Positions 41,417 through 57,079 of a DNA stretch of 64,000 nucleotides are shown piece by piece (the stretch's first letter is position 1; every line of letters starts with the position of its first letter). Source of the stretch: Streptomyces rubrogriseus (lineage in GTDB: Bacteria > Actinomycetota > Actinomycetes > Streptomycetales > Streptomycetaceae); assembly GCF_027947575.1 (NCBI RefSeq), contig NZ_CP116256.1, positions 1,612,001-1,676,000 of the forward strand. The letters run 5' to 3'. Position numbers and translations under genes: made by a program. The notes under the pieces were generated by a model that was not told the origin of the DNA, searched no databases, and saw nothing but the letters and a program-made list of their open reading frames with translations.

Positions 41417-44173
<2,757 letters not shown>

Positions 44174-44594
44174 GCTGTTCCTTCGCTGTCAGAGGGCCGT
44201 TTTTCCGGGTTTCACTCCGGGTTCTTCCCCGGTTCTTCCCGGGTTTCTGCGCCGATTCCCCCGCCGGTTCCCCATCGTGTACCTCGCGGGGGCAATCGTC
44301 ATCTGTACCGTGGGGTAACCGGTTCTCCCGTGAGGATCGGGGGCACGTTCATTCGAGTCTCGTACCCACACATGGTTCCCAAATACGCAAACGGGGCAGA
44401 TAGGTGTGGTGTACGTCACCTTCGGGCTGGACGGCATGGTTGGAGTTGCGGCGACACAGCCGGGATCGTCACCGTTTCGGCGGTCCCAGACGCCGGGTAC
44501 TTGCGCGATCCGTCCCGCCCGTGTGGACTACGGCCAAGCCTCGCGCACGCGCGTGGCTGAAGACATCTACCGAAACATGATCAGGAGGCAACCC
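44174..44594. other. Divergent aceE / DUF3052 intergenic region with short direct repeats
   Basis: A 421-base gene-free region that must hold both divergent promoters. Next to aceE, at 44205-44247, four imperfect copies of CCGGGTTTC / CCGGGTTCTTC follow each other at 10-12 base spacing; this is about one helical turn and suggests a protein-binding array or a structured leader on the aceE mRNA. I see no convincing -35/-10 pair for either gene. The stretch 44340-44594 holds nothing else I can name apart from the AGGAGG before the DUF3052 start. Confidence 0.5.
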
Positions 44595-45032
44595 GTGAGC
44601 GCGACCGCGGACCACGCGGAGGAGCGGACGAACCCTGCCGCCAGGCTGGGTTTCCAGCCCGGGCAGGTGGTCCAGGAGATCGGCTACGACGACGACGTCG
44701 ACCAGGAGCTCCGCGAGGCCATTGAGGGCGCCGTCGAGGGCGAGCTGGTGGACGAGGACTACGAGGACGTGGCCGATGCCGTCGTGCTGTGGTTCCGTGA
44801 CGACGACGGCGACCTGACGGATGCGCTGGTGGATGCCACCACGTACATCGAAGAGGGCGGGTCGATCCTCCTTCTCACGCCGAAGACCGGCCGTGACGGG
44901 TACGTCGAGGCCAGTGACATCTCGGAGGCCTCGACGACCGCCGGACTGACGGCGTCCAAGAGCGTCAGCGTCGGCAAGGACTGGAGCGGCAGCCGGCTGG
45001 CGACGCCCAAGGCCGCCAAGTCCAAGCGGTAG
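44595..45032 (+). CDS. DUF3052 family protein
   Basis: A 145-residue soluble acidic protein of the actinobacterial DUF3052 family, full length for the family. Key segments: NPAARLGFQPGQVVQEIGYD, AVVLWFRDDDGDLTDALVDA and GSILLLTPKTGRDGYVEASD. The C-terminus is basic (ATPKAAKSKR). The GTG start has a perfect AGGAGG 8 bases upstream. In Mycobacterium tuberculosis the homologue Rv2239c likewise sits between aceE and ahpE, so the association is old, but the function is unknown. Confidence 0.88.
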   Translation: MSATADHAEERTNPAARLGFQPGQVVQEIGYDDDVDQELREAIEGAVEGELVDEDYEDVADAVVLWFRDDDGDLTDALVDATTYIEEGGSILLLTPKTGRDGYVEASDISEASTTAGLTASKSVSVGKDWSGSRLATPKAAKSKR

Positions 45033-45075
45033 CCCGACCGGGCTCCGTGACGTTCCGGACTCCGGGCGGGTCGAC

Positions 45076-45093
45076 GGCCGACGGCTGTCGGCC
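45076..45093 (+). terminator. Small hairpin after the DUF3052 gene
   Basis: A perfect 7-bp stem (GGCCGAC / GTCGGCC) with a 4-base loop, 44 bases past the stop and about 100 bases before the AhpE gene. It could be a weak terminator or processing site; no T-tract. Confidence 0.4.
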
Positions 45094-45193
45094 CGTCCGC
45101 GGGTCCGCGACCGTCCCTGCGTAGGGTGTTTCCAGCGAATCACCCACGGAGATCTTCCCGCGGAGATCTTCCTACGGAAGGGACGAACGGGAC

Positions 45194-45652
45194 ATGGCGA
45201 TCCAGGTCGGCGACAAGGCCCCCGACTTCGAACTCAAGGACAACCACGGTGCGACCGTCCGGCTGTCCGAGTTCCGCGGCCGGAAGAACGTCGTGCTGCT
45301 CTTCTACCCCTTCGCCTTCACCGGTGTGTGCACCGGCGAACTGTGCGAGGTGCGCGACAACCTGCCGCAGTTCTCCGACCGCGACACCGAGGTGCTCGCC
45401 GTCTCCAACGACTCCATCCACACCCTGCGCGTCTTCGCCGAGCAGGAGGGCCTGGAGTACCCGCTGCTGTCCGACTTCTGGCCGCACGGCAACGTCTCGC
45501 GCGCCTACGGCGTCTTCGACGAGGACAAGGGTTGCGCCGTCCGCGGCACCTTCGTGATCGACCAGGAGGGTGTCGTCCGCTGGACCGTGGTCAACGCTCT
45601 GCCGGACGCCCGTGACCTGGCCGAGTACGTGAAGGCGCTCGACGCCCTGTGA
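45194..45652 (+). CDS. ahpE: Peroxiredoxin, AhpE type
   Basis: A 152-residue thiol peroxidase that reduces hydrogen peroxide, organic peroxides and peroxynitrite. The peroxidatic Cys46 is in [15 protein letters not shown], with a second Cys51 five residues on, as in Bcp/AhpE proteins. Other family features are [10 protein letters not shown] near the start and [19 protein letters not shown] lies before the ATG. The order aceE, DUF3052, AhpE is shared with mycobacteria, where AhpE is a one-cysteine peroxiredoxin; the symbol is assigned on that basis and a generic Bcp name would also fit. Confidence 0.9.
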
Positions 45653-45748
45653 CCGGCGCCCCGCCGGCCGGCACCGCGTGGCGACCCCGCGTGGCGACGC
45701 CGGGTGCCGACACCACGTGATTGGTCGGCTCCGGGGACTGCGGGGCGC

Positions 45749-45781
45749 GGGAACCCGTCACTAGGATCAACTCGTTGATCC
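45749..45781 (+). promoter_or_regulatory. Candidate stress promoter and 18-base palindrome upstream of the first terD
   Basis: GGGAAC (45749-45754) and CGTT (45773-45776) are separated by 18 bases, a spacing and sequence like ECF sigma factor promoters. Overlapping it, GGATCAAC-TC-GTTGATCC (45764-45781) is a perfect inverted repeat that could be an operator. TAGGAT at 45763 also resembles a housekeeping -10 but has no matching -35. Confidence 0.4.
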
Positions 45782-45832
45782 GATATCCACGCACTACGGG
45801 GCACCCCGCCCCTGGACACCAATGGAGGACTC

Positions 45833-46408
45833 GTGGGAGTCAGCCTCAGCAAGGGCGGCAACGTTTCGCTGACCAAGGAGGCCCCCGGCCTGACCGCGGT
45901 CATCGTCGGTCTGGGGTGGGACATCCGCACCACGACCGGCACCGACTTCGACCTCGACGCCAGCGCTCTGCTGCTGAACAGCGGCGGCAAGGTCGCCAGC
46001 GACGCGCACTTCATCTTCTTCAACAACCTGAAGAGCCCGGACGGATCGGTCGAGCACACCGGCGACAACATCACCGGTGAGGGCGAGGGCGACGACGAGC
46101 AGATCAAGATCAACCTCGCCACGGTCCCCGCCGACATCGAGAAGATCGTCTTCCCGGTCTCGATCTACGACGCCGAGAACCGCCAGCAGTCCTTCGGCCA
46201 GGTGCGCAACGCGTTCATCCGCGTCGTCAACCAGGCCGGCGAGGCCGAGATCGCCCGCTACGACCTGAGCGAGGACGCCTCCACCGAGACCGCCATGGTC
46301 TTCGGCGAGCTGTACCGCCACGGCGCGGAGTGGAAGTTCCGGGCCATCGGCCAGGGCTACGCCTCCGGCCTGCGCGGCATCGCCCAGGACTTCGGCGTGA
46401 ACGTCTGA
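45833..46408 (+). CDS. terD: TerD family protein, first copy
   Basis: A 191-residue TerD domain protein, the standard length. Calcium-binding features are intact: [11 protein letters not shown] in the first half and the acidic loop [17 protein letters not shown], with the partner segment [13 protein letters not shown] and the C-terminal [21 protein letters not shown] (quoted in part). TerD proteins bind calcium and are linked to resistance to tellurite and phages, and in Streptomyces to stress and development. GTG start with GGAGG 5 bases upstream. First gene of the Ter cluster. Confidence 0.95.
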
Positions 46409-46559
46409 GCGACCGATCGACCGATCGGCCGGACGGCCGGGGCGACGCCCCCGGCCGTCCGGTGAGGCCACGGTCTCGACACGTCCGGCGCCGCACGGTT
46501 TACGTGCGGCGCCGGACGCGCAGGAAACAGGAACCATCACCCGGGGAGGGACCATCACC

Positions 46560-47135
46560 ATGGGCGTCACGCTTGCCAAGGGCGGCAACGTCTCCCTGTC
46601 CAAGGCCGCACCGAACCTCACGCAGGTACTGGTCGGGCTCGGCTGGGACGCGCGTTCCACCACCGGAGCACCCTTCGACCTCGACGCCAGCGCACTCGTG
46701 TGCAGCAGCGGCCGGGTGCTCGGCGACGAGTGGTTCGTCTTCTACAACCAGCTCAAGAGCCCGGACGGCTCGATCGAGCACACCGGCGACAACCTCACCG
46801 GCGAGGGCGACGGTGACGACGAGTCGCTGCTGGTCGACCTCTCCAAGGTGCCGGCCCACTGCGACAAGATCGTCTTCCCGGTCTCGATCCATATGGCCGA
46901 CGAGCGCGGCCAGACCTTCGGCCAGGTCAGCAACGCCTTCATCCGGGTCGTCAACCAGGCCGACGGCCAGGAACTGGCCCGCTACGACCTCAGTGAGGAC
47001 GCCTCCACGGAGACCGCGATGATCTTCGGCGAGCTCTACCGCTACCAGGGCGAGTGGAAGTTCCGTGCAGTGGGGCAGGGGTACGCGTCTGGGCTTCGCG
47101 GCATCGCTCTAGACTTCGGAGTCAACGTTTCGTAA
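46560..47135 (+). CDS. terD: TerD family protein, second copy
   Basis: A second 191-residue TerD protein, very similar to the preceding one through its whole length (same [17 protein letters not shown] start, [27 protein letters not shown] and the same C-terminus), so the two are a tandem duplication. Calcium-binding acidic residues are all kept. A 151-base gap with GAGG before the ATG separates them, and the TerC-like gene follows after 49 bases. The paralogues may form mixed assemblies on the membrane with the TerC-like protein; this is inferred from published models of Ter systems. Confidence 0.95.
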
Positions 47136-47184
47136 AGCCGAGTACGGCGCGGGGGAGCCCCGTACACACACGATTGGGTAGCCA

Positions 47185-48327
47185 GTGCTTCTGAAAACCT
47201 TCGGCTGGTCGTTCGCGGTCACCGCGCTCGGCCTGGTCGCGGCGGTCTTCTACGGGGGGTGGACCGCCTTCGGCATCGTCGCGATCCTCTCGATCATGGA
47301 GATCTCGCTGTCCTTCGACAACGCGGTGGTCAACGCCGGGATCCTGAAGAAGATGAATGCCTTCTGGCAGAAGATCTTCCTCACCATCGGCATCCTCATC
47401 GCCGTGTTCGGCATGCGCCTGGTCTTCCCGGTCGTGATCGTGGCGATCAGCGCCCAGCTCGGACCGATCGAGGCCGTCGACCTCGCGCTCACCGACAAGG
47501 ACCGCTATCAGGAGCTGGTGACGGACGCCCATCCGTCGATCGCCGCCTTCGGTGGCATGTTCCTTCTGATGATCTTCCTCGACTTCATCTTCGAGGACCG
47601 GGACATCAAGTGGCTGGCCTGGCTGGAGCGTCCGCTGGCCAAGCTCGGCAAGGTCGACATGCTGTCGGTCTGCATCGCCCTGATCGTGCTGCTCGTCTCC
47701 GCGATCACCTTCGGCGCCCACGCCCACCAGCACGGCGGCGCCCATGCCGACAAGGCGGAGACGGTCCTGCTCGCGGGCATCGCGGGCCTGATCACCTACA
47801 TGATCGTGGGCGGTCTCTCCGGCTACTTCGAGGACAAACTCGAAGAGGAGGAGGAACGGGAGCACGAGGAGGAAGAGGAAGCCGCGCGCACCGGCAAGCC
47901 CAAGTCGGCCGTCAGGCTGGCGGGCAAGGCCGCGTTCTTCATGTTCCTCTACCTGGAGGTCCTGGACGCGTCCTTCTCCTTCGACGGCGTCATCGGCGCC
48001 TTCGCCATCACCAACGACATCGTCCTGATGGCCCTCGGCCTCGGCATCGGCGCCATGTACGTCCGTTCGCTCACGGTCTACCTGGTCCGCCAGGGCACCC
48101 TCGACGACTACGTGTACCTGGAGCACGGCGCCCACTACGCCATCGGCGCCCTCGCCGTGATCCTGCTGGTCACCATCCAGTACGAGATCCACGAGATCAT
48201 CACCGGCCTCGTCGGCGTCGCCCTGATCGGCTGGTCCTTCTTCTCCTCGGTCCGCCGCAACCGCGCACTGGCGGCGGCCGGGGGAGACGGCGACCAGGAG
48301 AAGGCGGAGGTCTCCTCCGGGGTGTGA
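47185..48327 (+). CDS. TerC-type integral membrane protein (DUF475)
   Basis: A 380-residue polytopic membrane protein with about nine hydrophobic segments. Two inverted repeats each carry an acidic intramembrane motif, SLSFDNAVVNAGIL near residue 44 and SFSFDGVIGAFAI near residue 269, characteristic of the TerC/DUF475 superfamily of putative metal-ion transporters. Between them is a His-rich loop (HAHQHGGAHADK) and a very acidic cytoplasmic patch (EEEEEREHEEEEE), both likely metal-contact sites. GTG start. Its place after two TerD genes supports a membrane anchor or metal exporter role within the Ter complex. Confidence 0.9.
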   Translation: MLLKTFGWSFAVTALGLVAAVFYGGWTAFGIVAILSIMEISLSFDNAVVNAGILKKMNAFWQKIFLTIGILIAVFGMRLVFPVVIVAISAQLGPIEAVDLALTDKDRYQELVTDAHPSIAAFGGMFLLMIFLDFIFEDRDIKWLAWLERPLAKLGKVDMLSVCIALIVLLVSAITFGAHAHQHGGAHADKAETVLLAGIAGLITYMIVGGLSGYFEDKLEEEEEREHEEEEEAARTGKPKSAVRLAGKAAFFMFLYLEVLDASFSFDGVIGAFAITNDIVLMALGLGIGAMYVRSLTVYLVRQGTLDDYVYLEHGAHYAIGALAVILLVTIQYEIHEIITGLVGVALIGWSFFSSVRRNRALAAAGGDGDQEKAEVSSGV

Positions 48328-48411
48328 AACCCTTGATCCCCGGGCCGGGGCGCGCCCCCGGTGCGCCCGCACCCCTGGTGTGAACCCGGCCCGGACGAGG
48401 AACGCTCTGAG

Positions 48412-48450
48412 CGGGGCGGCCGACGAGGACGACTCCTCGGGGCCGCCCCG
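48412..48450. terminator. Long hairpin between the TerC-type and TerA-like genes
   Basis: A nested stem: CGGGGCGGCC pairs with GGCCGCCCCG, and inside it CGAGGA pairs with TCCTCG around a CGAC loop. It begins about 85 bases after the TerC-type stop and ends 29 bases before the next start, so it may both end the upstream transcript and influence the leader of the next gene. Confidence 0.7.
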
Positions 48451-48478
48451 TCGGCGGTGACGCGAAGGTGGGGCGGGA

Positions 48479-49216
48479 ATGGGCTTCCTGGACGGGCTGT
48501 GGCGCGGCCGTGAGTCCGAGTTCGACTCGGGCAGCGCGGCGACCAACTCCATACAGCTGACCAAACGGCACAGTCAGGTCTCCCTGACCAAGCAGGGCGC
48601 GGCGACCGGCAATCTCCGCGTCAACCTCTCCTGGCGGATGCGGACCTCCGACATCTCGGGCGTGCAGCGGGAGAGCCTGCTGCGGCACCCCTTCAAGGCG
48701 CTCAAGCCCCCCGAGGTCGTCGGCCACAGCCAGAGCATGGTCAACGTCGACCTCGACCTCGGCTGCCTCTACGAACTCAAGGACGGCACCCGCGGGGTGG
48801 TCCAGCCGCTCGGCGGCTTCCTGGGCGACGTCAACGCCCCGCCGTACGTCAAGCTCAGCGGCGACGACCGCTTCGGCTCGGCCTCCGGCGAGACGCTCTA
48901 CGTCAACCTCGACCACAAGGACGAGATCAAGCGCCTGCTGCTCTTCGCCTACATCTACGACCAGACACCGGCCTTCGACCGGACGCACGCCGTCGTCACG
49001 CTCTACCCGAGCAACGGGCCGCGCATCGAGATCGGCCTCGACGAGCGGCATCCGCAGGCCCGGTCCTGTGCCGTGGTGATGATCGAGAACGTCAAGGACG
49101 AGATCCTCGTCCGCCGCGAGGTGAAGTTCGTCTACGGCTTCCAGGGCGAGCTGGACCGGCTGTACGGCTGGGGCCTGCAATGGGGCCGGGGGCACAAGAG
49201 CAAGGCGGAGCGCTGA
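48479..49216 (+). CDS. TerA/TerD-like tellurium resistance protein
   Basis: A 245-residue divergent TerD-superfamily protein. A 30-residue polar N-terminus is followed by QVSLTKQG, then VNVDLDLGCLYELKDGTRG (the counterpart of the D-x-D-A-S strand), SASGETLYVNL and a C-terminal FQGELDRLYGWGLQWG in place of the usual G-Y-A-S-G-L ending. Such TerA-like proteins accompany TerD in Ter operons. The acidic calcium loop of TerD is shortened to GDDRFGSASGE. Function within the complex unknown. ATG with GGCGGGA upstream, preceded by the long hairpin. Confidence 0.85.
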   Translation: MGFLDGLWRGRESEFDSGSAATNSIQLTKRHSQVSLTKQGAATGNLRVNLSWRMRTSDISGVQRESLLRHPFKALKPPEVVGHSQSMVNVDLDLGCLYELKDGTRGVVQPLGGFLGDVNAPPYVKLSGDDRFGSASGETLYVNLDHKDEIKRLLLFAYIYDQTPAFDRTHAVVTLYPSNGPRIEIGLDERHPQARSCAVVMIENVKDEILVRREVKFVYGFQGELDRLYGWGLQWGRGHKSKAER

Positions 49217-49246
49217 GCCCCGGCCACCGGCCGCCGTCCGCGGGGG

Positions 49247-50272
49247 CTACCGGCCCACGAACTGCGGGCCCTGCGGGGGCAGCCGGAAGTCCGGATCGGG
49301 CGCCCCGGTGACCGGCTGTGGATAGCCGTAGCCGGACTGCGCTCCCGCGACCCCGGCCGCCGCAGGCGCCTGCGGATACCCGTACCCGGGCCGGCCGGCG
49401 TCCGGCTGGGGGTAGCCGTAGGCGGGCTGGGCCGTCGCCGGCTGCTGCGGATAGCCGTACGCGGGCTGCGCCGGCACGCCGGTGGGCTGCTCGGGCGGCA
49501 GGGGGCGCGAAGGCACCGGAAGCGGCTGCACGGCCGTCGGGTGGTCGGGGCCGACCACCGGCGGAGCGGGGGTGGACTGGGCGGGCGTCGGCTGGTCGGG
49601 CGTGGCCTGCGAGGGGGCGGACGAGGACGCGGCGGAGGGGGCGGCGGCGGAAGAGGAGGCGGCGGAAGGGGCTGCGGGGGACGTCGACGCGGCGTCGGGG
49701 CGGGGGGCCGACATCGGGTCGTCCGCCCCCTCCGACTCGTCCACCGAGATGCCGAAGTCGGTCGCCAGGCCCTTGAGCCCGTTGGAGTAGCCCTCGCCCA
49801 GCGCCCGGAACTTCCAGCCGTCCCCGCGCCGATACAGCTCGCCGCAGATCAGCGCCGTCTCCTGGCCGGTCTCCGGGGTGACGTCGAAGTACGCCAGCGG
49901 TTCCGCGTCGGCCGCCGCGTCGTGCAGCAGGATGCGCAGCGACCGGACGCGGTCGAAGGTCACGCCGTCCGCCGACGCGACCAGCAGGATCCGGCCCACC
50001 GAGGGCTCGACGCCGGAGAGGTCCGTCTGGATCGTGTCGGTCAGGCCCTCGGCGACCCGCTTCTTGCCGAGCCGCCAGACCTGGCCGGAGGGATGCCGTG
50101 GCTGGTTGTAGAAGACGAAGTCCTCGTCGGAACGCACGCGGTCGTCCGGCCCCAGCAGCAGCGCGGAGGCGTCGACGTCGGGAACCCCCTGCCCGGGGGT
50201 CCAGCGCAGCACGGCGCGTACCGTGGTGGCTTGCAGCGGGACGTTCGACCCCTTCAGCATCGCGTGCGTCAT
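49247..50272 (-). CDS. TerD-domain protein with Gly-Tyr-Pro-Gln repeat tail
   Basis: A 341-residue protein on the opposite strand to the rest of the cluster. Residues 1-175 form a TerD domain ([56 protein letters not shown]). The acidic calcium loop of canonical TerD is missing ([13 protein letters not shown] stands there), so calcium binding is probably lost or reduced. Residues 180-341 are Ala/Ser/Pro linker and four YGYPQ-type repeats, a likely disordered, self-associating tail. AGGA lies 7 bases before the ATG. It is divergent from the enzyme module and shares its intergenic region. Confidence 0.88.
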
Positions 50273-50479
50273 GTCGTCATCCTGCCCTCTCGGTCCTGGT
50301 CACGACAACGCGGGGGCGGGTACTCGGCCCGTGTCCGCCCGCCCCGGGTCGCCGTCGCCGACACGGCCGGGTTACCTGGAATTCATGCCCGGTGGGAACC
50401 TCCGACATCACTACCTACGTACTATTACCGGCCACCTTTCGGCGATTCCAGGTCGCCCAGACACCACGGGGGAGTTTAA

Positions 50480-51646
50480 ATGCGTCATTTCGGACAGATA
50501 GCCCCTGATGTGCGGAAGCGTCTCTTTCATCAGGAGCCCTGCTCCTTCACGGCGGACTCCCCGGCCAGGCTGCTCTCCGCGGCCCTGGGCGCCACGCTCT
50601 ACAGTCCGGCCACCCGACCCAGCCTCGCCGACGACATCCTGAAGCAGAGCGCGCGCGGAGTGGTGTCGATGGTGCTGTGCCTGGAGGACTCGATCGACGA
50701 CGCCGACGTCCCCGTCGGCGAGGCGAACCTCGTGCGTCAGCTCACGGACCTGGCGGAACGTTCCGGCGGCGACGTCCCCCTGCTGTTCGTCCGGGTCCGT
50801 ACCCCCGAGCAGATACCCGACCTCGTACGGCGCCTCGGCCCCGCCGTGCGGCTGCTGTCCGGGTTCGTACTGCCGAAGTTCACCGAGGAACGCGGCATGC
50901 CCTTCCTGGAGGCGCTCGCCGCCGCCGAGGCCACCAGCGGCCGCAGGCTCTTCGCCATGCCCGTGCTCGAGTCCCCGGACCTGCTGTACCGGGAGTCCCG
51001 GGTCCAGACGCTGGAGGGCATCTTCCGGGCGGTCGACAAGTACCGCGACCGCGTGCTGGCCCTGCGGCTCGGCGTGACCGACTTCTGCTCCTCCTACGGG
51101 CTGCGCCGGGGCCCCGACATGACGGCCTACGACGTCCAGATCGTCGCCTCCGTGATCGCCGACGTGGTCAACATGCTCGCCCGCGCCGACGGCACCGGAT
51201 TCACGGTGACCGGACCGGTGTGGGAGTACTTCCGCGTCCAGGAGAGGATGTTCAAACCGCAGCTGCGGCAGAGCCCCTTCCTGGAAGGGCAGGCCGTCGA
51301 ACTGCGCCAGAAGCTCATCGAGCACTCCATGGACGGCCTGCTGCGCGAGATCTCCCTGGACCGGGCCAACGGCCTGCTGGGCAAGACCTGCATCCACCCC
51401 TCGCACGTGCTCCCCGTGCACGCACTGTCCGTGGTCAGCCACGAGGAGTTCAGCGACGCCCAGGACATCCTGCGGCCCGAACGCTGCGGCGGAGGCGTGA
51501 TGAGGTCGGCCTACACGAACAAGATGAACGAGGTGAAGCCGCACCGCGCCTGGGCCGAGCGGACCCTGCTGCGCGCCGAGGTCTTCGGGGTGGCGAACGA
51601 GGACGTCGGCTTCGTGGAGCTGCTCGCCGCCGGACTCTCCGACTGA
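50480..51646 (+). CDS. HpcH/HpaI aldolase - citrate lyase type C-C lyase of the Ter module
   Basis: A 388-residue TIM-barrel enzyme of the HpcH/citryl-lyase superfamily. Motifs: MVLCLEDSIDDADV near the start (acidic metal/CoA region), GFVLPKFTEERGMPF, AMPVLESPDLLYRE, LALRLGVTDFCSSYGLRRG and GKTCIHPSHVLPVHAL. In published comparative genomics of Ter systems this family forms a biosynthetic module with phosphoribosyltransferases and a HAD phosphatase, predicted to make a nucleoside-like metabolite. The two genes that follow are exactly those partners. GGGGGAG lies before the ATG. The reaction, probably a C-C bond formation or cleavage, is unknown. Confidence 0.88.
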   Translation: MRHFGQIAPDVRKRLFHQEPCSFTADSPARLLSAALGATLYSPATRPSLADDILKQSARGVVSMVLCLEDSIDDADVPVGEANLVRQLTDLAERSGGDVPLLFVRVRTPEQIPDLVRRLGPAVRLLSGFVLPKFTEERGMPFLEALAAAEATSGRRLFAMPVLESPDLLYRESRVQTLEGIFRAVDKYRDRVLALRLGVTDFCSSYGLRRGPDMTAYDVQIVASVIADVVNMLARADGTGFTVTGPVWEYFRVQERMFKPQLRQSPFLEGQAVELRQKLIEHSMDGLLREISLDRANGLLGKTCIHPSHVLPVHALSVVSHEEFSDAQDILRPERCGGGVMRSAYTNKMNEVKPHRAWAERTLLRAEVFGVANEDVGFVELLAAGLSD

Positions 51647-51724
51647 ACGCCGGGCGACCGGACGCAAGCGATCCACAACCGACGCCGGGCCCACGCCGCG
51701 GCGGACAACGGGAGGCACGAGCAG

Positions 51725-54244
51725 ATGACCGAGCGGGCGCACGCCGAGGGGCACGCCGACAAGGACGCCGCAGAGCACGCCGACAGGCACGCCGGAGTCT
51801 GGTCCGGCAGCTGGGTCGCCGAGCGGCTCGGCGTCGGACTCACCGGCGACGAGGCGCTGACCGGCCTGCTGGGGCTCGCCCTGCGCCGCAACCCCAAGCG
51901 GGCGCACCTGCTCGTCTCCAACGTGCTCGGCAAGCACGTCCCGCAGTCGCCCGGCGTCGTCTACGGCCACGGCGTCGCCCTCGGCCGACGCGTCCGCGAC
52001 CTGCTCGGCGCCGAGGAGGCCGCACGCGCGGTCGTCCTCGGCTACGCGGAGACCGCCACCGGACTCGGTCACTCCGTCGCCGACGGCCTGGGCCCCGCGC
52101 CCTACCTGCACTCCACCCGCCGTCCGGTCGCCGGAGTCGCCCGGGCGGGCGGCTTCGAGGAGTCCCACTCGCACGCGACCTCCCACCTCCTGCTGCCCGA
52201 GGACCCGGCGCTGCTCGCCGGAGACGGGCCGCTGGTCCTCGTCGACGACGAGTTCTCCACCGGCAACACGGTGCTCAACACCGTCCGCGCCCTGCACGAG
52301 CGCTATCCCCGCAAGCGGTACGTCGTGGTCGCCCTGGTCGACATGCGCTCGCCCGCGGACGCCGGCCGGCTGGACGACTTCGCCCGGGAGATCGGCGCCC
52401 GCGTGGACCTGGTGACCACCGCCTCCGGCACGGTCCGGCTGCCGCCCGGCGTACTGGAGAAGGGGCAGGAGCTGGTCGCCCGGCACGAGGCGACGGCCAC
52501 CGAGCCGACCGGCCCCGCTCCGGCCGCGCCACCGGCCGGATCCGTCGAGCGCGTCCGGCTGCGCTGGCCGCACCACGTGCCCGACGGCGGACGGCACGGA
52601 TTCACCGCCGCCCACCGGGCCGGGCTGGAGGCCGCCCTGCCCGCCATGGCGGCACAGATCGCCGAGGCGCTCCCCGCCGGCGCCCGACGCGTGCTCGTCC
52701 TCGGCTTCGAGGAGCTCATGTACGCCCCCCTCCGCCTGGCCCACGCGCTGGAGCAGACGGTCGGCGCCGAGGTCGACGTGCGCTACTCCACCACCACCCG
52801 CTCTCCCGTCCTCGCCGTCGACGACCCCGGCTACGCCATCCGCACCCGTCTGGTCTTCCCCGCGCACGACGACCCGGCCGACGGCCCCGGCGAGCGCTAC
52901 GCCTACAACGTCGCGGGCGGCGGCTTCGACGCCGTCGTCGCCGTCGTCGACTCGACCGCCGACACCCCCGCTCTGCACGCCCCGGACGGACTGCCGGCCC
53001 GGCTCGCCGCCCATGTCCCGCACGTCCTGCTCGCGGTCGTCCCGTCGTACGTCCCGCGCCCCCCGCACGACACCGAAAGGCCCTCCATGCTGCCCGAGCC
53101 CCTGCGCGGCCCCGACTTCTCCTCGTACGCGCCCGACGAGGTCGGCTGGCTGCTCCAGGACCTCTCGGACGTGACGCTGGAGGCGCCGACCGAGGAGCGC
53201 GAGGAGGCGATCCAGAGCGGCGGCGCGCACTACGCCGAGTCGCTGCCCGTGGAGTACCAGCCCAGCGAGCAGTACCAGGACCTGTTCCACGCGGCGCTCG
53301 AGACGTCCGCGGCCCGGCTGGCGCGCGCCGTCGGCGCCGTCACCGAGATCGTCCTCGCCGAACGGTCGCCCCGCCCCGTCCTGGTCTCCCTCGCCCGCGC
53401 GGGCACCCCGGTCGGCGTTCTGATGCGCCGCTGGGCGCAGTTCCGCCATGGTCTCGACCTCCCCCACTACGCCGTGTCGATCGTCCGGGGCCGCGGCATC
53501 GACGCCAACGCGCTGCGCTGGCTGGCCGACCACCACGACCCCGCCGACGTCGTCTTCGTCGACGGCTGGACCGGCAAGGGCGCCATCACCCGCGAACTCG
53601 CCGCCGCCCTGCGCGCGTTCGAGGCCACCGACGGCATCACCGGCTTCGACCCGGAGATCGCCGTACTGGCCGATCCCGGCTCCTGCGTACGCACCTACGG
53701 CACCCGTGACGACTTCCTCATCCCCTCCGCCTGCCTCAACTCCACCGTCTCCGGCCTGATATCCCGCACCGTGCTCCGCGCCGACCTGGTCGGCCCGCAC
53801 GACTTCCACGGCGCGAAGTTCTACCGCGAACTCGCCGCCGCCGACCTGTCACCGGACTTCCTCGACGCCGTCTCCGCCCGCTTCCCCGACGTCACGGACA
53901 CGGTCGACGCCCAGGCGAAGGACCTCCTCTCCGCCGACCGCACCCCCACCTGGGAGGGCTGGGCGGCCGTCGAGCGCATCAGCGAGGAGTACGGCATCCA
54001 CGACGTGAACCTCGTCAAGCCCGGCGTCGGCGAGACCACGCGGGTGATGCTGCGCCGCGTCCCGTGGAAGGTGCTGGCCCGCACCGGAGCCGGCGCCGAC
54101 CTGGACCACGTCCGCCTGCTGGCCGAACAGCGGGGCGTGCCCGTGGAGGAGGTCGCCGACCTCCCGTACACCTGTGTCGGGCTGATCCACCCCCAGTACA
54201 CGCGGGGCGCCACCGGCGCCGACGGCAAGGCGGTGACGCTCTGA
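51725..54244 (+). CDS. PRTase-TRSP-StiP-PELOTA fusion protein of the Ter module
   Basis: An 839-residue multidomain protein. Residues about 60-245 are a phosphoribosyltransferase with the PRPP motif VLVDDEFSTGNT (residues 171-182). About 280-440 is a TRSP domain, whose name-giving Thr-Arg-Ser-Pro is at 358-361. From residue 455 a second module of the StiP/PRTase_1 family begins (LPVEYQPSEQYQDLF, VSLARAGTPVGVL, YAVSIVRGRGIDANAL, FVDGWTGKGAI, GTRDDFLIPSACLNSTVSG). The last 90 residues resemble the PELOTA-type RNA-binding domain. In many bacteria these are separate genes. An in-frame ATG at 53087 with GAAAGG 6 bases upstream begins the StiP part and may allow a second product. Confidence 0.88.
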   Translation: MTERAHAEGHADKDAAEHADRHAGVWSGSWVAERLGVGLTGDEALTGLLGLALRRNPKRAHLLVSNVLGKHVPQSPGVVYGHGVALGRRVRDLLGAEEAARAVVLGYAETATGLGHSVADGLGPAPYLHSTRRPVAGVARAGGFEESHSHATSHLLLPEDPALLAGDGPLVLVDDEFSTGNTVLNTVRALHERYPRKRYVVVALVDMRSPADAGRLDDFAREIGARVDLVTTASGTVRLPPGVLEKGQELVARHEATATEPTGPAPAAPPAGSVERVRLRWPHHVPDGGRHGFTAAHRAGLEAALPAMAAQIAEALPAGARRVLVLGFEELMYAPLRLAHALEQTVGAEVDVRYSTTTRSPVLAVDDPGYAIRTRLVFPAHDDPADGPGERYAYNVAGGGFDAVVAVVDSTADTPALHAPDGLPARLAAHVPHVLLAVVPSYVPRPPHDTERPSMLPEPLRGPDFSSYAPDEVGWLLQDLSDVTLEAPTEEREEAIQSGGAHYAESLPVEYQPSEQYQDLFHAALETSAARLARAVGAVTEIVLAERSPRPVLVSLARAGTPVGVLMRRWAQFRHGLDLPHYAVSIVRGRGIDANALRWLADHHDPADVVFVDGWTGKGAITRELAAALRAFEATDGITGFDPEIAVLADPGSCVRTYGTRDDFLIPSACLNSTVSGLISRTVLRADLVGPHDFHGAKFYRELAAADLSPDFLDAVSARFPDVTDTVDAQAKDLLSADRTPTWEGWAAVERISEEYGIHDVNLVKPGVGETTRVMLRRVPWKVLARTGAGADLDHVRLLAEQRGVPVEEVADLPYTCVGLIHPQYTRGATGADGKAVTL

Positions 54245-55056
54245 TGCCCGTACTCGTCGCCAGCGACCTCGACCGCACGCTCATCTACTCCGCGGCCGCC
54301 CTCGGACTGACCATGCCCGACCTGCGGGCACCCCGCCTGCTGTGCGTGGAGGTCTACGAGGGCAGACCCCTCTCCTACCTGACCGAGACGGCCGCCCAAC
54401 TGCTGACCGACCTCGGCGACTCGGCCCTCTTCGTGCCGACCACCACCCGGACCCGCAAGCAGTACCAGCGGATCAACCTCCCGGGCCCCGCGCCGAAGTA
54501 CGCGATCTGCGCCAACGGCGGCCACCTGCTGGTGGACGGCGTCTCCGACCCCGGCTGGCACGCCCGGGTGACCGCACGGCTGGCCGACGAATGCGCCTCG
54601 CTCGCCGAGGTCCGCGACCACCTGACGAACACCGCCGACCCGCTGTGGGTGCGCAAGCACCGGGTCGCCGAGGACCTCTTCGCCTACCTGGTCGTCGAAC
54701 GCGACCTGCTGCCCCAGGACTGGGTGAAGGAACTCGCCGTGTGGGCCGAGAACCGCGGCTGGACCGTGTCCCTCCAGGGCCGCAAGATCTACGCCGTGCC
54801 CAAGCCGCTCACCAAGAGCGCCGCCGTGCGCGAGGTGGCCCGCCGCACCGGCGCCGAACTCACCCTCGCCGCCGGAGACTCGCTCCTCGACGCCGACCTG
54901 CTCCTCGCCGCCGACCGCGGCTGGCGCCCGGGCCACGGCGAACTGGCCGACTCCGGCTGGACGGCTCCGACGATCAGCGCCTTGCCCGAGCGCGGCGTCC
55001 TGGCCGGTGAGCGGATCCTCCGGGAGTTCCTGCGCGCGGTGCGCCCGACCCGCTGA
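54244..55056 (+). CDS. HAD-superfamily phosphatase of the Ter module
   Basis: A 270-residue HAD hydrolase. Motif I is ASDLDRTLIYS (Asp8, Asp10), motif II is the Thr in FVPTTTRT, the Lys of motif III is in PKPLTKSAAV, and motif IV is LAAGDSLLDADLLLAAD. The capping insert of about 100 residues puts it among Cof/phosphomannomutase-like sugar phosphatases. Its ATG overlaps the last base of the upstream stop (TGATG), so it is translationally coupled. In published Ter module reconstructions a HAD enzyme dephosphorylates the phosphoribosylated intermediate. Its 3' end overlaps the convergent DedA gene by 83 bases. Confidence 0.87.
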   Translation: MPVLVASDLDRTLIYSAAALGLTMPDLRAPRLLCVEVYEGRPLSYLTETAAQLLTDLGDSALFVPTTTRTRKQYQRINLPGPAPKYAICANGGHLLVDGVSDPGWHARVTARLADECASLAEVRDHLTNTADPLWVRKHRVAEDLFAYLVVERDLLPQDWVKELAVWAENRGWTVSLQGRKIYAVPKPLTKSAAVREVARRTGAELTLAAGDSLLDADLLLAADRGWRPGHGELADSGWTAPTISALPERGVLAGERILREFLRAVRPTR

Positions 55057-55804
55057 ACCCGTCGTCCCCGTCCCCGGCACCGCTCCCGGTGCCGGGGTGA
55101 CCGTCGTCGTCGGCCGGCGGCCGTATGTCCTGCCGCCCGTCGTCGCCACGGCCCCGCCGACGGTGACCGGCCCCCGGCCGCAGCAGCCGCATGACGACGA
55201 AGACCACCAGCGCCAGGGCGGCCGCCGCGAGGATCACCTTCGAATAGGTGGAGGCGATGCCCGAGACCTCCGACCAGTTGTCCCCCAGCGCGTAGCCCGC
55301 GAGCACGAACACGGTGTTCCAGATCGCGCTGCCCAGCGTGGTCAGGGCGAGGAAGACGGGCAGCCGCATCCGCTCCACACCCGCCGGCACGGAGATCAGA
55401 CTGCGGAAGATGGGGATCATCCGGCCGAAGAACACCGCCTTGGTCCCGTGCCTGAGGAACCACGCCTCCGTCTTCTCTATGTCGGACACCTTCACCAACG
55501 GCAGCTTCCCCGCTATCGCCACCGTGCGGTCCCGGCCGAGCAGGGCACCGATCCCGTACAGGGCGAGCGCGCCGATCACCGAACCCGCCGTCGTCCACAG
55601 CAGGACGGCGATCAGGTTCATACGGCCGGAACTCGCCGCGAACCCGGCCAGCGGCAGGATCACCTCGCTCGGCAGGGGAGGAAAGAGATTCTCCAGAGCG
55701 ATGGCGAGACCGGCGCCGGGGGCGCCGAGGGCGTCCATGAGGTCGTTGATCCACTGCGGTGCCGCGCCGCTGTCCACGGCCGGCTGCGCTGCGATGGCTG
55801 TCAT
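54974..55804 (-). CDS. DedA family membrane protein with charged C-terminal tail
   Basis: A 276-residue DedA (SNARE-associated/VTT) protein. Hallmarks are ENLFPPLPSEVILPLAGF near residue 42, and FFGRMIPIFRSLISVPAGVERM near residue 125, with four to five membrane segments. DedA proteins act in lipid or polyprenyl-phosphate flipping and membrane homeostasis. After the last helix (about residue 215) there is a 60-residue Gly/Asp/Arg-rich tail, unusual for the family, and its final 27 codons lie on top of the 3' end of the HAD gene. It is divergent from the two-component system and may share its operator. Confidence 0.87.
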   Translation of the reverse strand: MTAIAAQPAVDSGAAPQWINDLMDALGAPGAGLAIALENLFPPLPSEVILPLAGFAASSGRMNLIAVLLWTTAGSVIGALALYGIGALLGRDRTVAIAGKLPLVKVSDIEKTEAWFLRHGTKAVFFGRMIPIFRSLISVPAGVERMRLPVFLALTTLGSAIWNTVFVLAGYALGDNWSEVSGIASTYSKVILAAAALALVVFVVMRLLRPGAGHRRRGRGDDGRQDIRPPADDDGHPGTGSGAGDGDDGFSGSGAPRAGTPGGSAHRPGRRARARR

Positions 55805-55862
55805 GACGACCACGCTAGAAAATCGCGGCTGAAGGGACCCTGAGGAAGACCGCATGATCGAT

Positions 55863-55929
55863 TGCGGTGTACCGCAGGCGGGAATTGCGGTTTTCCGCAG
55901 TGTGCCCGCCCACCGCGCCCGACTAGCCT
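55863..55929 (+). promoter_or_regulatory. Tandem operator and promoter of the two-component system
   Basis: Two identical-arm inverted repeats TGCGG-N4-CCGCA stand at 55863-55876 and 55886-55899, centres 23 bases apart. A -10 TAGCCT follows at 55924-55929 and the ATG is 7 bases further, implying a leaderless mRNA whose start places the repeats at about -67 and -44. The -35 region is poor, as expected for an activated promoter. The adjacent LuxR-type response regulator is the natural ligand. Confidence 0.7.
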
Positions 55930-55936
55930 CGCGATC

Positions 55937-57079
55937 ATGCGAGTCATGGCGCGACGTGTAGTGCGGTGCGGGGCTGGCCTCATCCTGGGGACCGCCGCGG
56001 CCGCCGTCGAGCTGCTCTTCGCCCTGCTGGCCGGCGTGGCCCTGCTGCCGGTGGCCGCCTGGCCGAGGGGGCGCCGTGCCGTACTGCGCCCGGTCCTCGC
56101 GGGCGCGCGGATCCTGGCGGAGCTGGAGCGGGGCCGACTGCGGATGTGGCTCGACCTCCGCGTCACGCCCGCGTACGAGGACGTGCGGGCGCTGCGGTAC
56201 GTCGCCTGCCACTGGGCCCTGGGCGTCCTGGGCGGGGTCGTGATGCTGACTGCCGCCATCGGTCTGGCGTACGGCACCTTCGGGGTGTACGGCTGGCTCC
56301 TGCTGGACGGCATACGCAACCCCGGTTCGCTGGTCCTGGGCAGTCTGGGCGGCTTCTTCCTCGTGTTCCTCACCGTGCAGGGAATATTCGGTGTGGTGGG
56401 ACTGGAGGGGCAGCTGGCCCGGCACTTCCTCGGCCCGCGCCACCAGGAGGAGCTGGAGCGGCGGATCGCCGAGCTGTCCGCCAGCCGCGCCGCGGTCGTC
56501 GACGCGGTGAACGACGAACGGCGCCGCATCGAGCGCGACCTGCACGACGGTGTGCAGCAGCGGCTCGTCGCCCTCGGCATGCTGCTCGGCCGGGCCCGCC
56601 GCAGCCAGGACGCCGACCGCCGGGACCGCCTGCTGGGCCAGGCCCACGACGAGAGCCGCCGGGCCCTGGACGAGCTGCGCGAGGTGGCCTGGCGGATCTA
56701 CCCGACCACGCTGGACGAGGCGGGGCTGCGCGCGGCCCTGGAAACGGTCGCCGAGCGGGCGTCCGTACCGGTGGGAGTGGAGTACGAGCTGGCCGAGGAG
56801 CCCGAACAGGCCGTGGCGACCGTCGCGTACTTCGTCGTCTGCGAGGCGGTCACCAACGCGGTCAAGCACGCGGCGCCGACCCGTATAAGCGTCGCGGTCA
56901 GAGCGGAGGAGAAACGGATGTACGTGAGCGTGCGGGACGACGGCTGCGGCGGGGCCAACGCCTCGGGCAGCGGACTGTTCGGGCTCGCCCGGCGCGTCGC
57001 CGCCCTCGACGGCAGCCTCAGCGTGGACAGCCCCCCGGGAGGGCCGACCCTCGTGGCCGCGGAGCTGCCATGCGGGTGA
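55937..57079 (+). CDS. Sensor histidine kinase (NarL/DesK type)
   Basis: A 380-residue kinase with two N-terminal hydrophobic regions and a pair of helices near 95-155 (probably four membrane segments), then a DHp domain with phospho-acceptor His203 in RRRIERDLHDGVQQRL and a HATPase_c domain (VVCEAVTNAVKHA as the N-box, VSVRDDGCGG as the G1 box, GSGLFGLARRVAALDG as the G2 box). This is the HisKA_3 family that partners LuxR-type regulators. There is no large extracellular sensor loop, so it may sense the membrane itself. It overlaps the regulator gene by 10 bases. Confidence 0.93.
   Translation: MRVMARRVVRCGAGLILGTAAAAVELLFALLAGVALLPVAAWPRGRRAVLRPVLAGARILAELERGRLRMWLDLRVTPAYEDVRALRYVACHWALGVLGGVVMLTAAIGLAYGTFGVYGWLLLDGIRNPGSLVLGSLGGFFLVFLTVQGIFGVVGLEGQLARHFLGPRHQEELERRIAELSASRAAVVDAVNDERRRIERDLHDGVQQRLVALGMLLGRARRSQDADRRDRLLGQAHDESRRALDELREVAWRIYPTTLDEAGLRAALETVAERASVPVGVEYELAEEPEQAVATVAYFVVCEAVTNAVKHAAPTRISVAVRAEEKRMYVSVRDDGCGGANASGSGLFGLARRVAALDGSLSVDSPPGGPTLVAAELPCG

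Follow-up and report, generated by a model that had tools for sequence, protein, structure and literature searches.

What the Ter stress proteins of Streptomyces do beside a set of biosynthesis-like enzyme genes, and what those enzymes might make, is the question raised by a gene island of Streptomyces rubrogriseus. The island lies at positions 45833-55056 of a 64,000-nucleotide stretch of contig NZ_CP116256.1 (positions 1,612,001 to 1,676,000), referred to here as the window. It holds eight genes: two for TerD proteins (TerD1 and TerD2), one for a DUF475 TerC-type protein, one for a TerA-like protein, a divergent gene for a long TerD protein, and genes for a lyase, a PRTase_2-TRSP-StiP-PELOTA fusion (PRTase, phosphoribosyltransferase) and a HAD phosphatase. 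We propose, with about an even chance of being right, that this Ter stress island consists of two co-regulated operons under the control of an extracytoplasmic function (ECF) sigma factor, and that the second operon makes a small metabolite. The gene set and a nucleoside prediction are already known: in 2012 Anantharaman et al. reportedly predicted a nucleoside-like metabolite from the Ter-linked biosynthetic module. What is added here is a minimal enzyme set, probable promoters, doubt about a protease label and a link to a solved phosphatase.

Gene content and conservation of the island

An initial annotation, made from the sequence without database searches, had placed Ter genes directly beside overlapping or close genes for the three enzymes. 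Every gene that it named was recovered; the PRTase stop and the HAD start share one base (TGATG at 54242-54246), and 78 bp separate the lyase gene from the PRTase gene. The coordinate from which that annotation started, 45749, is the first base of a predicted -35 element and no gene start. A PF15617 lyase, PRTase_2-TRSP, StiP-PELOTA and HAD occur together with TerD and TerC genes adjacent, and the set is the known Ter-linked one, as had been recognized. The TerA-like open reading frame (ORF) does not reach the Pfam cut-off (TerD, E 0.048); it matches the C-terminal half of a Citrobacter TerA-type protein (36% identity over 219 aligned positions, E 8e-38) and a protein of the IMG/VR contig L106 (37% identity, E 6e-46). 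Proteins named S. violaceoruber share 98% identity with the fusion protein, which probably places this genome in the S. coelicolor group. The whole genome (one contig, 8.41 Mb) contains 19 TerD matches.

For comparison, the best 80 of 569 confirmed loci were named, all of them Streptomyces by title. The order of ten genes from DUF3052 to HAD is identical in all 61 of these loci that are at least 20 kb long, nine of which also match a further downstream gene, and parts of the same order are seen in the 19 loci shorter than 20 kb. Of 200 Streptomycetaceae, 190 have StiP, among them 66/66 genomes of the window's genus; across the phylum it is present in 14 of 246 sampled actinobacteria (12 of them strong matches). 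The 61/61 conservation of gene order rules out chance or artefact, and the frequency of StiP in Streptomycetaceae rules out a novel or recently acquired cluster. Judged from these sequence comparisons, the locus is a known core Ter stress island that is near-universal in Streptomyces, and not an unusual one.

Eleven loci holding StiP were compared (the window, L023, L024, L025, L106 and L151-L156), and PRTase_2 and HAD accompany StiP in ten of them. On an enterobacterial IncHI plasmid of Citrobacter (L025), TerD, TerC, TerA-type, PRTase_2, StiP, HAD and lyase genes likewise stand together. The Streptomyces cluster differs from it in containing neither ATP-grasp nor TerB, in the fusion of PRTase and StiP, and in a lyase operon with its own predicted promoter. 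A Tsukamurella plasmid (L024) has the order TerD, TerD, DUF475, hypothetical, lyase, PRTase, StiP, HAD in common with the window, and there too ATP-grasp is neither annotated nor matched; its PRTase and StiP, however, are separate genes and its TerA-like domain is in another gene. The remaining exception in the set, the actinobacterial L154, carries a distantly related StiP (29% over 309 positions), next to which five TerD/TerA-type genes are matched (L154:9422-14609). A reduced form of the module was seen on a Rhizobium plasmid stretch (L023:11896-15152), where PRTase, StiP and HAD are matched and lyase, ATP-grasp and Ter genes are not.

Promoter signatures of the two putative operons

For an upstream region to be retained, the match had to start close to the beginning of the protein, with sufficient flanking sequence, and for TerD1 the protein had in addition to be at least 85% identical; the 80 loci and the window together gave 68 sequences for TerD1 and 75 for the lyase. 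All 68 aligned TerD1 regions carry GGGAAC-N18-CGT (CGTTGA in 67, CGTTTG in one). Upstream of the lyase, GGGAAC-N17/18-CGT is present in 71/75 regions (CGTACT in 70, CGTAGT in one), with a spacer of 18 bp in 68 and 17 bp in three. At the lyase promoter the mean column identity is 0.99 and 1.00 in the hexamers, 0.76 in the spacer and 0.61 in the downstream flank, a clear contrast; at TerD1, with 1.00 for both hexamers, 0.94 for the spacer and 0.90 for the flank, the contrast is weak. The 64 kb contain no further GGGAAC-N18-CGT site, although two or more such sites are also present in 23 of 100 shuffled sequences; the full hexamer forms occur four (TerD1 form) and three (lyase form) times across the whole genome.

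With a GGAAC-type -35, a CGT-type -10, a spacing of 17-18 bp and conservation among relatives, both sites have the predicted features of ECF sigma promoters. They resemble sigma-E sites, of which 59/100 have an 18-bp spacer according to PMC10771440, and the SigR-like motif gggaan18,20cgtt given in PMC2375139. Envelope-stress evidence from S. coelicolor and Klebsiella likewise points toward stress-type regulation. Two intact clusters without ATP-grasp (L155 and L156) both have the TerD1 signature; the lyase signature is full in L155 and has a CGTACG form in L156. In a genome of another family, GGGAAC-N17-CGTTGG was observed about 120 bp upstream of TerD1 (L153:5870, minus strand), possibly an older origin of this promoter.

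By its sequence TerD1 is the orthologue of SCO2368, since the published sco2368 promoter sequence matches here exactly over 29 bases and the published distance of 317 bp ends at the TerD1 start, as in the SCO2361-SCO2368 region of S. coelicolor. From their order alone the remaining cluster genes would correspond to SCO2367 to SCO2361. The list of sigma-E targets includes sco2368, with that other predicted promoter, which falls inside a peroxiredoxin gene (45194-45652). Because of this position within coding sequence, the intergenic site appears to be the better promoter candidate, and the published one is doubtful and may be mis-assigned. The main texts of the RIViT-seq and 2024 sigma-E papers do not mention SCO236x. 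A perfect 8-bp inverted repeat, GGATCAAC-TC-GTTGATCC at 45764-45781, reaches into the TerD1 promoter spacer, so that another element may overlap the promoter there; the repeat is broken at one base in most relatives. An antisense RNA to sco2364 is conserved in three Streptomyces species according to PMC3765725; judged by gene order, sco2364 would be the divergent TerD gene at 49247-50272. SCO2362 has an entry in a GlnR paper. A known Rfam RNA was rejected for 44000-56000, where three matches (E up to 0.1) all fall under their gathering scores.

Enzymes of the second putative operon

The first enzyme gene encodes a lyase whose family profile matches citrate-lyase-type structures (3qll, E 2.5e-10). 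Its residues E164 (in PVLESPD) and D201 (in GVTDF) are identical in 3/3 sequences, and we take them to be metal ligands. The PRTase_2 domain has a complete motif for phosphoribosyl pyrophosphate (PRPP), hhhhDDxxxTGxT, here LVLVDDEFSTGNT, in which D, D, T, G and T are invariant in 4/4 sequences. Structure models were built with AlphaFold2 from 26 and 30 chosen sequences and compared with known folds; the modelled PRTase_2 domain has a PRTase fold and aligns with type I PRTases. The motif and the model both favor the PRTase reading of the initial annotation.

The StiP domain is predicted by its model to have a PRTase-like fold, and the PELOTA tail an L7Ae-like one. Among the fold matches listed, the closest solved structures to StiP are those of PyrR, at low identity. 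In a set of 125 StiP sequences, mostly from Streptomyces, D613 is followed by G or S in every one, and the second acidic residue of the PRPP loop is lacking; for this reason we class StiP as PRTase-like in its modelled fold and not as a type I PRTase. Comparison of the StiP and PRTase_2 profiles gave a probability of 0.3 and no link. The database name 'cysteine protease' for StiP is doubtful. Cys654 is present in 124 of the same 125 sequences (Arg in L106), and there is no protease among the 50 fold matches listed for the StiP model, a listing that does not in itself exclude one.

The HAD protein of the window has no Pfam match at the cut-off. It matches PDB 6cj0 and 6d3v directly, and a profile of four Ter-module HADs matches 6d3v, 6d3w and 6cj0, all named 'Trehalose phosphatase', over nearly the full length (E values in Table 1); homology and the HAD catalytic motifs place it, on sequence, in the 6d3v family. 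In a ter cluster on a Pseudomonas aeruginosa plasmid (L157), the HAD between PRTase and StiP is annotated as trehalose phosphatase and matches the 6d3v/6cj0 chains at E 2.6e-160 over 251/252 residues. These chains share with the window HAD both the cluster type and the family profile; the window protein differs in being 28% identical to the Pseudomonas one over 230 aligned positions, and its substrate may differ as well. PMC6838324 describes the expression and purification of an extrachromosomal trehalose-6-phosphate phosphatase from P. aeruginosa, which showed activity in a phosphatase assay and was inhibited at an apparent Ki of 2.1 uM; where trehalose-6-phosphate is named there as the substrate, it is for nematode enzymes. 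Going by the names, this enzyme is probably the 6d3v/6cj0 chain; a literature search for the codes 6d3v, 6d3w and 6cj0 found no paper. Since the Pseudomonas cluster HAD matches the solved chains and a P. aeruginosa enzyme was purified and active, in-vitro data probably exist for the phosphatase step in modules of this kind. The statement that the reactions of the module had not been established was therefore slightly too strong, with the reservation that the window protein is only 28% identical to that relative.

As stated before, neither an ATP-grasp nor a TerB gene is present in the window: the ATPgrasp_Ter and TerB profiles are unmatched there. A genome-wide search found both families elsewhere. 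One strong ATPgrasp_Ter gene (5,482,383-5,483,534, 122.7 bits) lies 3.8 Mb from the cluster and is homologous to the in-cluster ATP-grasp of Citrobacter (28% over 288 positions, E 6e-22). Of the 12 strong StiP carriers, seven have a strong orthologue of it (E below 1e-190), as against none of the remaining 234 genomes. The cluster is kept without it in G104 and G162, which belong to the genus of the seven orthologue carriers, and in G049, G214 and G243 of another family. In-cluster ATP-grasp is also unmatched in L024 and L151-L153, and we treat it as a frequent partner that does not define the module. Because strong ATP-grasp is missing from five of the 12 strong carriers, it looks optional in actinobacteria, and the core seems to stand without it. 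The initial annotation had left the pathway as either reduced or completed elsewhere. The homologue 3.8 Mb away answers this in part, but the persistence of the cluster in the five carriers without ATP-grasp makes 'reduced' fit the data better, neither being proven. Of the three TerB matches in the genome, one is located at 127 kb, with a gene for a long TerD some 4 kb away. A second Ter island at 127-134 kb of the genome (L015:7089-13581) contains TerB, a 698-residue ORF with a TerD domain and, by eye, a Spo0M-type-like protein and two CNNM/CorC metal exporter-like proteins.

A proposed pathway and its alternatives

In the reading that we prefer, the putative operon 1 (TerD, TerD, TerC-type, TerA-like) would supply cytoplasmic TerD-fold proteins and a metal-transport-type membrane protein, and the likewise putative operon 2 (lyase, PRTase_2-TRSP-StiP-PELOTA, HAD) would make the small metabolite. 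The lyase would form or break a C-C bond to give a carbon skeleton, PRTase_2 would attach this skeleton to ribose-5-phosphate from PRPP, and the HAD would take the phosphate off. StiP-PELOTA would act as another domain of PRTase fold, though a non-canonical one, and would bear a tail of the RNA-binding type. A sigma factor of the sigma-E/sigma-R type might turn on both operons under envelope or thiol stress, and the TerD and TerC proteins would presumably make use of the product.

Several results weigh against this proposal. No report of a metabolite from the module was found in literature searches, and the in-vitro activity of the HAD family carries the name of a trehalose-6-phosphate phosphatase and not of a nucleotidase. 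No PRTase_2, HAD or lyase match surrounds StiP in L154, and the lyase is undetected in the Rhizobium stretch. ATP-grasp is linked to the cluster in 0/80 Streptomyces loci, within the flanking sequence compared, and its strong form is absent genome-wide from the five carriers named above. As to regulation, the promoter footprints rest on relatives within the 80 closest loci, and at TerD1 the sequence that follows the -10 element is well conserved too. The published sigma-E promoter of sco2368 differs from the intergenic site, and the -10 elements CGTTGA and CGTACT are without the TC required by the sigma-E authors. Upstream of the Tsukamurella ter genes no GGAAC-N15-19-CGTT was found (there are two elsewhere; the CGTAC form was not searched), a further difference from Streptomyces.

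That the two operons lie together through history alone, each with a stress function of its own, is very unlikely. In L151-L153 the lyase operon and the TerD-TerC genes are divergently oriented, and the Rhizobium module has no matched Ter genes. Against this, the same neighbors recur in Streptomyces, Tsukamurella, Citrobacter, Pseudomonas and contig L106, and the promoter signatures of both operons match; together with the fixed synteny (61/61), these signatures strengthen the coupling of Ter and enzyme genes that had been suggested. A pathway split over two genome sites, requiring the ATP-grasp at 5.48 Mb, is favored by the single strong ATPgrasp_Ter gene of the genome, by the homology of this gene to the in-cluster Citrobacter enzyme and by the confinement of its strong orthologues to StiP carriers. 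We nevertheless hold it to be improbable: all seven carriers belong to one genus, so that shared ancestry explains the co-occurrence, two genomes of that genus and three of another family have the cluster alone, G108 has a weaker ATP-grasp homologue (E 1.2e-14) and no match to StiP, and no GGAAC-N16-19-CGT site was found just upstream of the ATP-grasp gene on its strand.

The nature of the product and the role of StiP allow other readings of the coupled island. The HAD could be a sugar-phosphate phosphatase of the trehalose-6-phosphate type, in which case the module would handle a phosphosugar or glycosyl compound and its product would not be an ordinary nucleoside. The four-HAD profile, the near-complete match of the Pseudomonas protein to the solved chains, and the purified P. 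aeruginosa enzyme (PMC6838324) speak for this, yet the distance between the window and Pseudomonas proteins, the PRPP chemistry implied by PRTase_2 and the lack of an annotated trehalose-phosphate synthase in stretches L025 and L157 leave it unlikely. HAD phosphatases are, moreover, often promiscuous. PyrR binds RNA, and StiP-PELOTA might similarly be an RNA-binding, nucleotide-sensing regulator and not a pathway enzyme, its protease name being wrong. We consider this doubtful. The likeness to PyrR is one of fold; StiP differs in its low identity, in its PRPP loop without the second acidic residue and in its separate L7Ae-like tail. A wider combination seems to us quite unlikely, namely that a non-protease, PyrR-like StiP senses the module's nucleotide product and passes its level on to RNA, while in actinobacteria a core of lyase, PRTase_2 and HAD, working without ATP-grasp and under ECF sigma control, produces a stress metabolite that is ribosylated or derived from a sugar phosphate.

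The preferred reading, in which the second operon makes a metabolite, concerns a near-universal, single-copy, chromosomal module in a genetically tractable genus, with ATP-grasp unlinked and clear stress-type promoter signatures, and these features make the question of its product answerable. The link from the HAD to a solved phosphatase is a first handle on the chemistry. Ter-linked StiP modules are present in soil bacteria, in 2567 plasmid records and in one phage-collection contig; StiP has at least 7907 significant homologues, 120 of which were listed, and the doubt over the 'cysteine protease' name touches this whole family.

Table 1. Genes and predicted promoter elements of the Ter island, in window coordinates.
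Feature	Position	Strand	Basis
Published predicted sigma-E promoter of sco2368	45488..45516	+	29/29 bases identical; 45516+317 = 45833
ECF-sigma-type promoter signature GGGAAC-N18-CGTTGA, predicted, upstream of TerD1	45749..45778	+	conserved in 68/68 regions
TerD1, SCO2368 orthologue by sequence	45833..46408	+	PF02342 293.7 bits; promoter-distance match to sco2368
TerD2	46560..47135	+	PF02342 276.3 bits; PDB 3ibz E 8e-90
TerC-type integral membrane protein (DUF475)	47185..48327	+	PF04332 477.1 bits; PF03741 TerC 74.3 bits
TerA-like protein	48479..49216	+	similarity to Citrobacter TerA-type and L106 proteins
Long TerD: TerD domain with long low-complexity Pro/Ala/Gln/Tyr-rich tail	49247..50272	-	PF02342 151.1 bits; translation
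ECF-sigma-type promoter signature GGGAAC-N18-CGTACT, predicted, upstream of lyase operon	50394..50423	+	conserved in 71/75 regions
HpcH/CitE-type C-C bond lyase	50480..51646	+	PF15617 411.2 bits
PRTase_2/TRSP/StiP/PELOTA fusion	51725..54244	+	Pfam 229/137/354/120 bits; AlphaFold2 models, fold comparison
HAD phosphatase, 6d3v/6cj0 'Trehalose phosphatase' family	54244..55056	+	PDB match E 2.5e-9; family profile E 8e-59

Membership of the catalogued anti-phage systems is ruled out, as PADLOC-DB 2023 gave 0 matches for eight proteins (seven of the eight cluster proteins, TerD2 being left out, and the ATP-grasp). A scan of viral contigs with the PRTase alignment confirmed no relative; contig L106 holds one, so the scan is insensitive. 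On L106 (5855-17388) a full ter cluster lies a few kb from an ORF resembling a phage lysozyme and comprises ATP-grasp, TerD-peptidase, PRTase, HAD, StiP, lyase, second HAD, TerD, TerA-type, TerB and TerC genes, some of them named by eye. Between its ATP-grasp and PRTase genes, at L106:6940-8079, a TerD domain is fused to an apparent trypsin-like peptidase, and in the Pseudomonas plasmid cluster an ORF annotated as trypsin-like peptidase (L157:4678-5817) occupies the same position.

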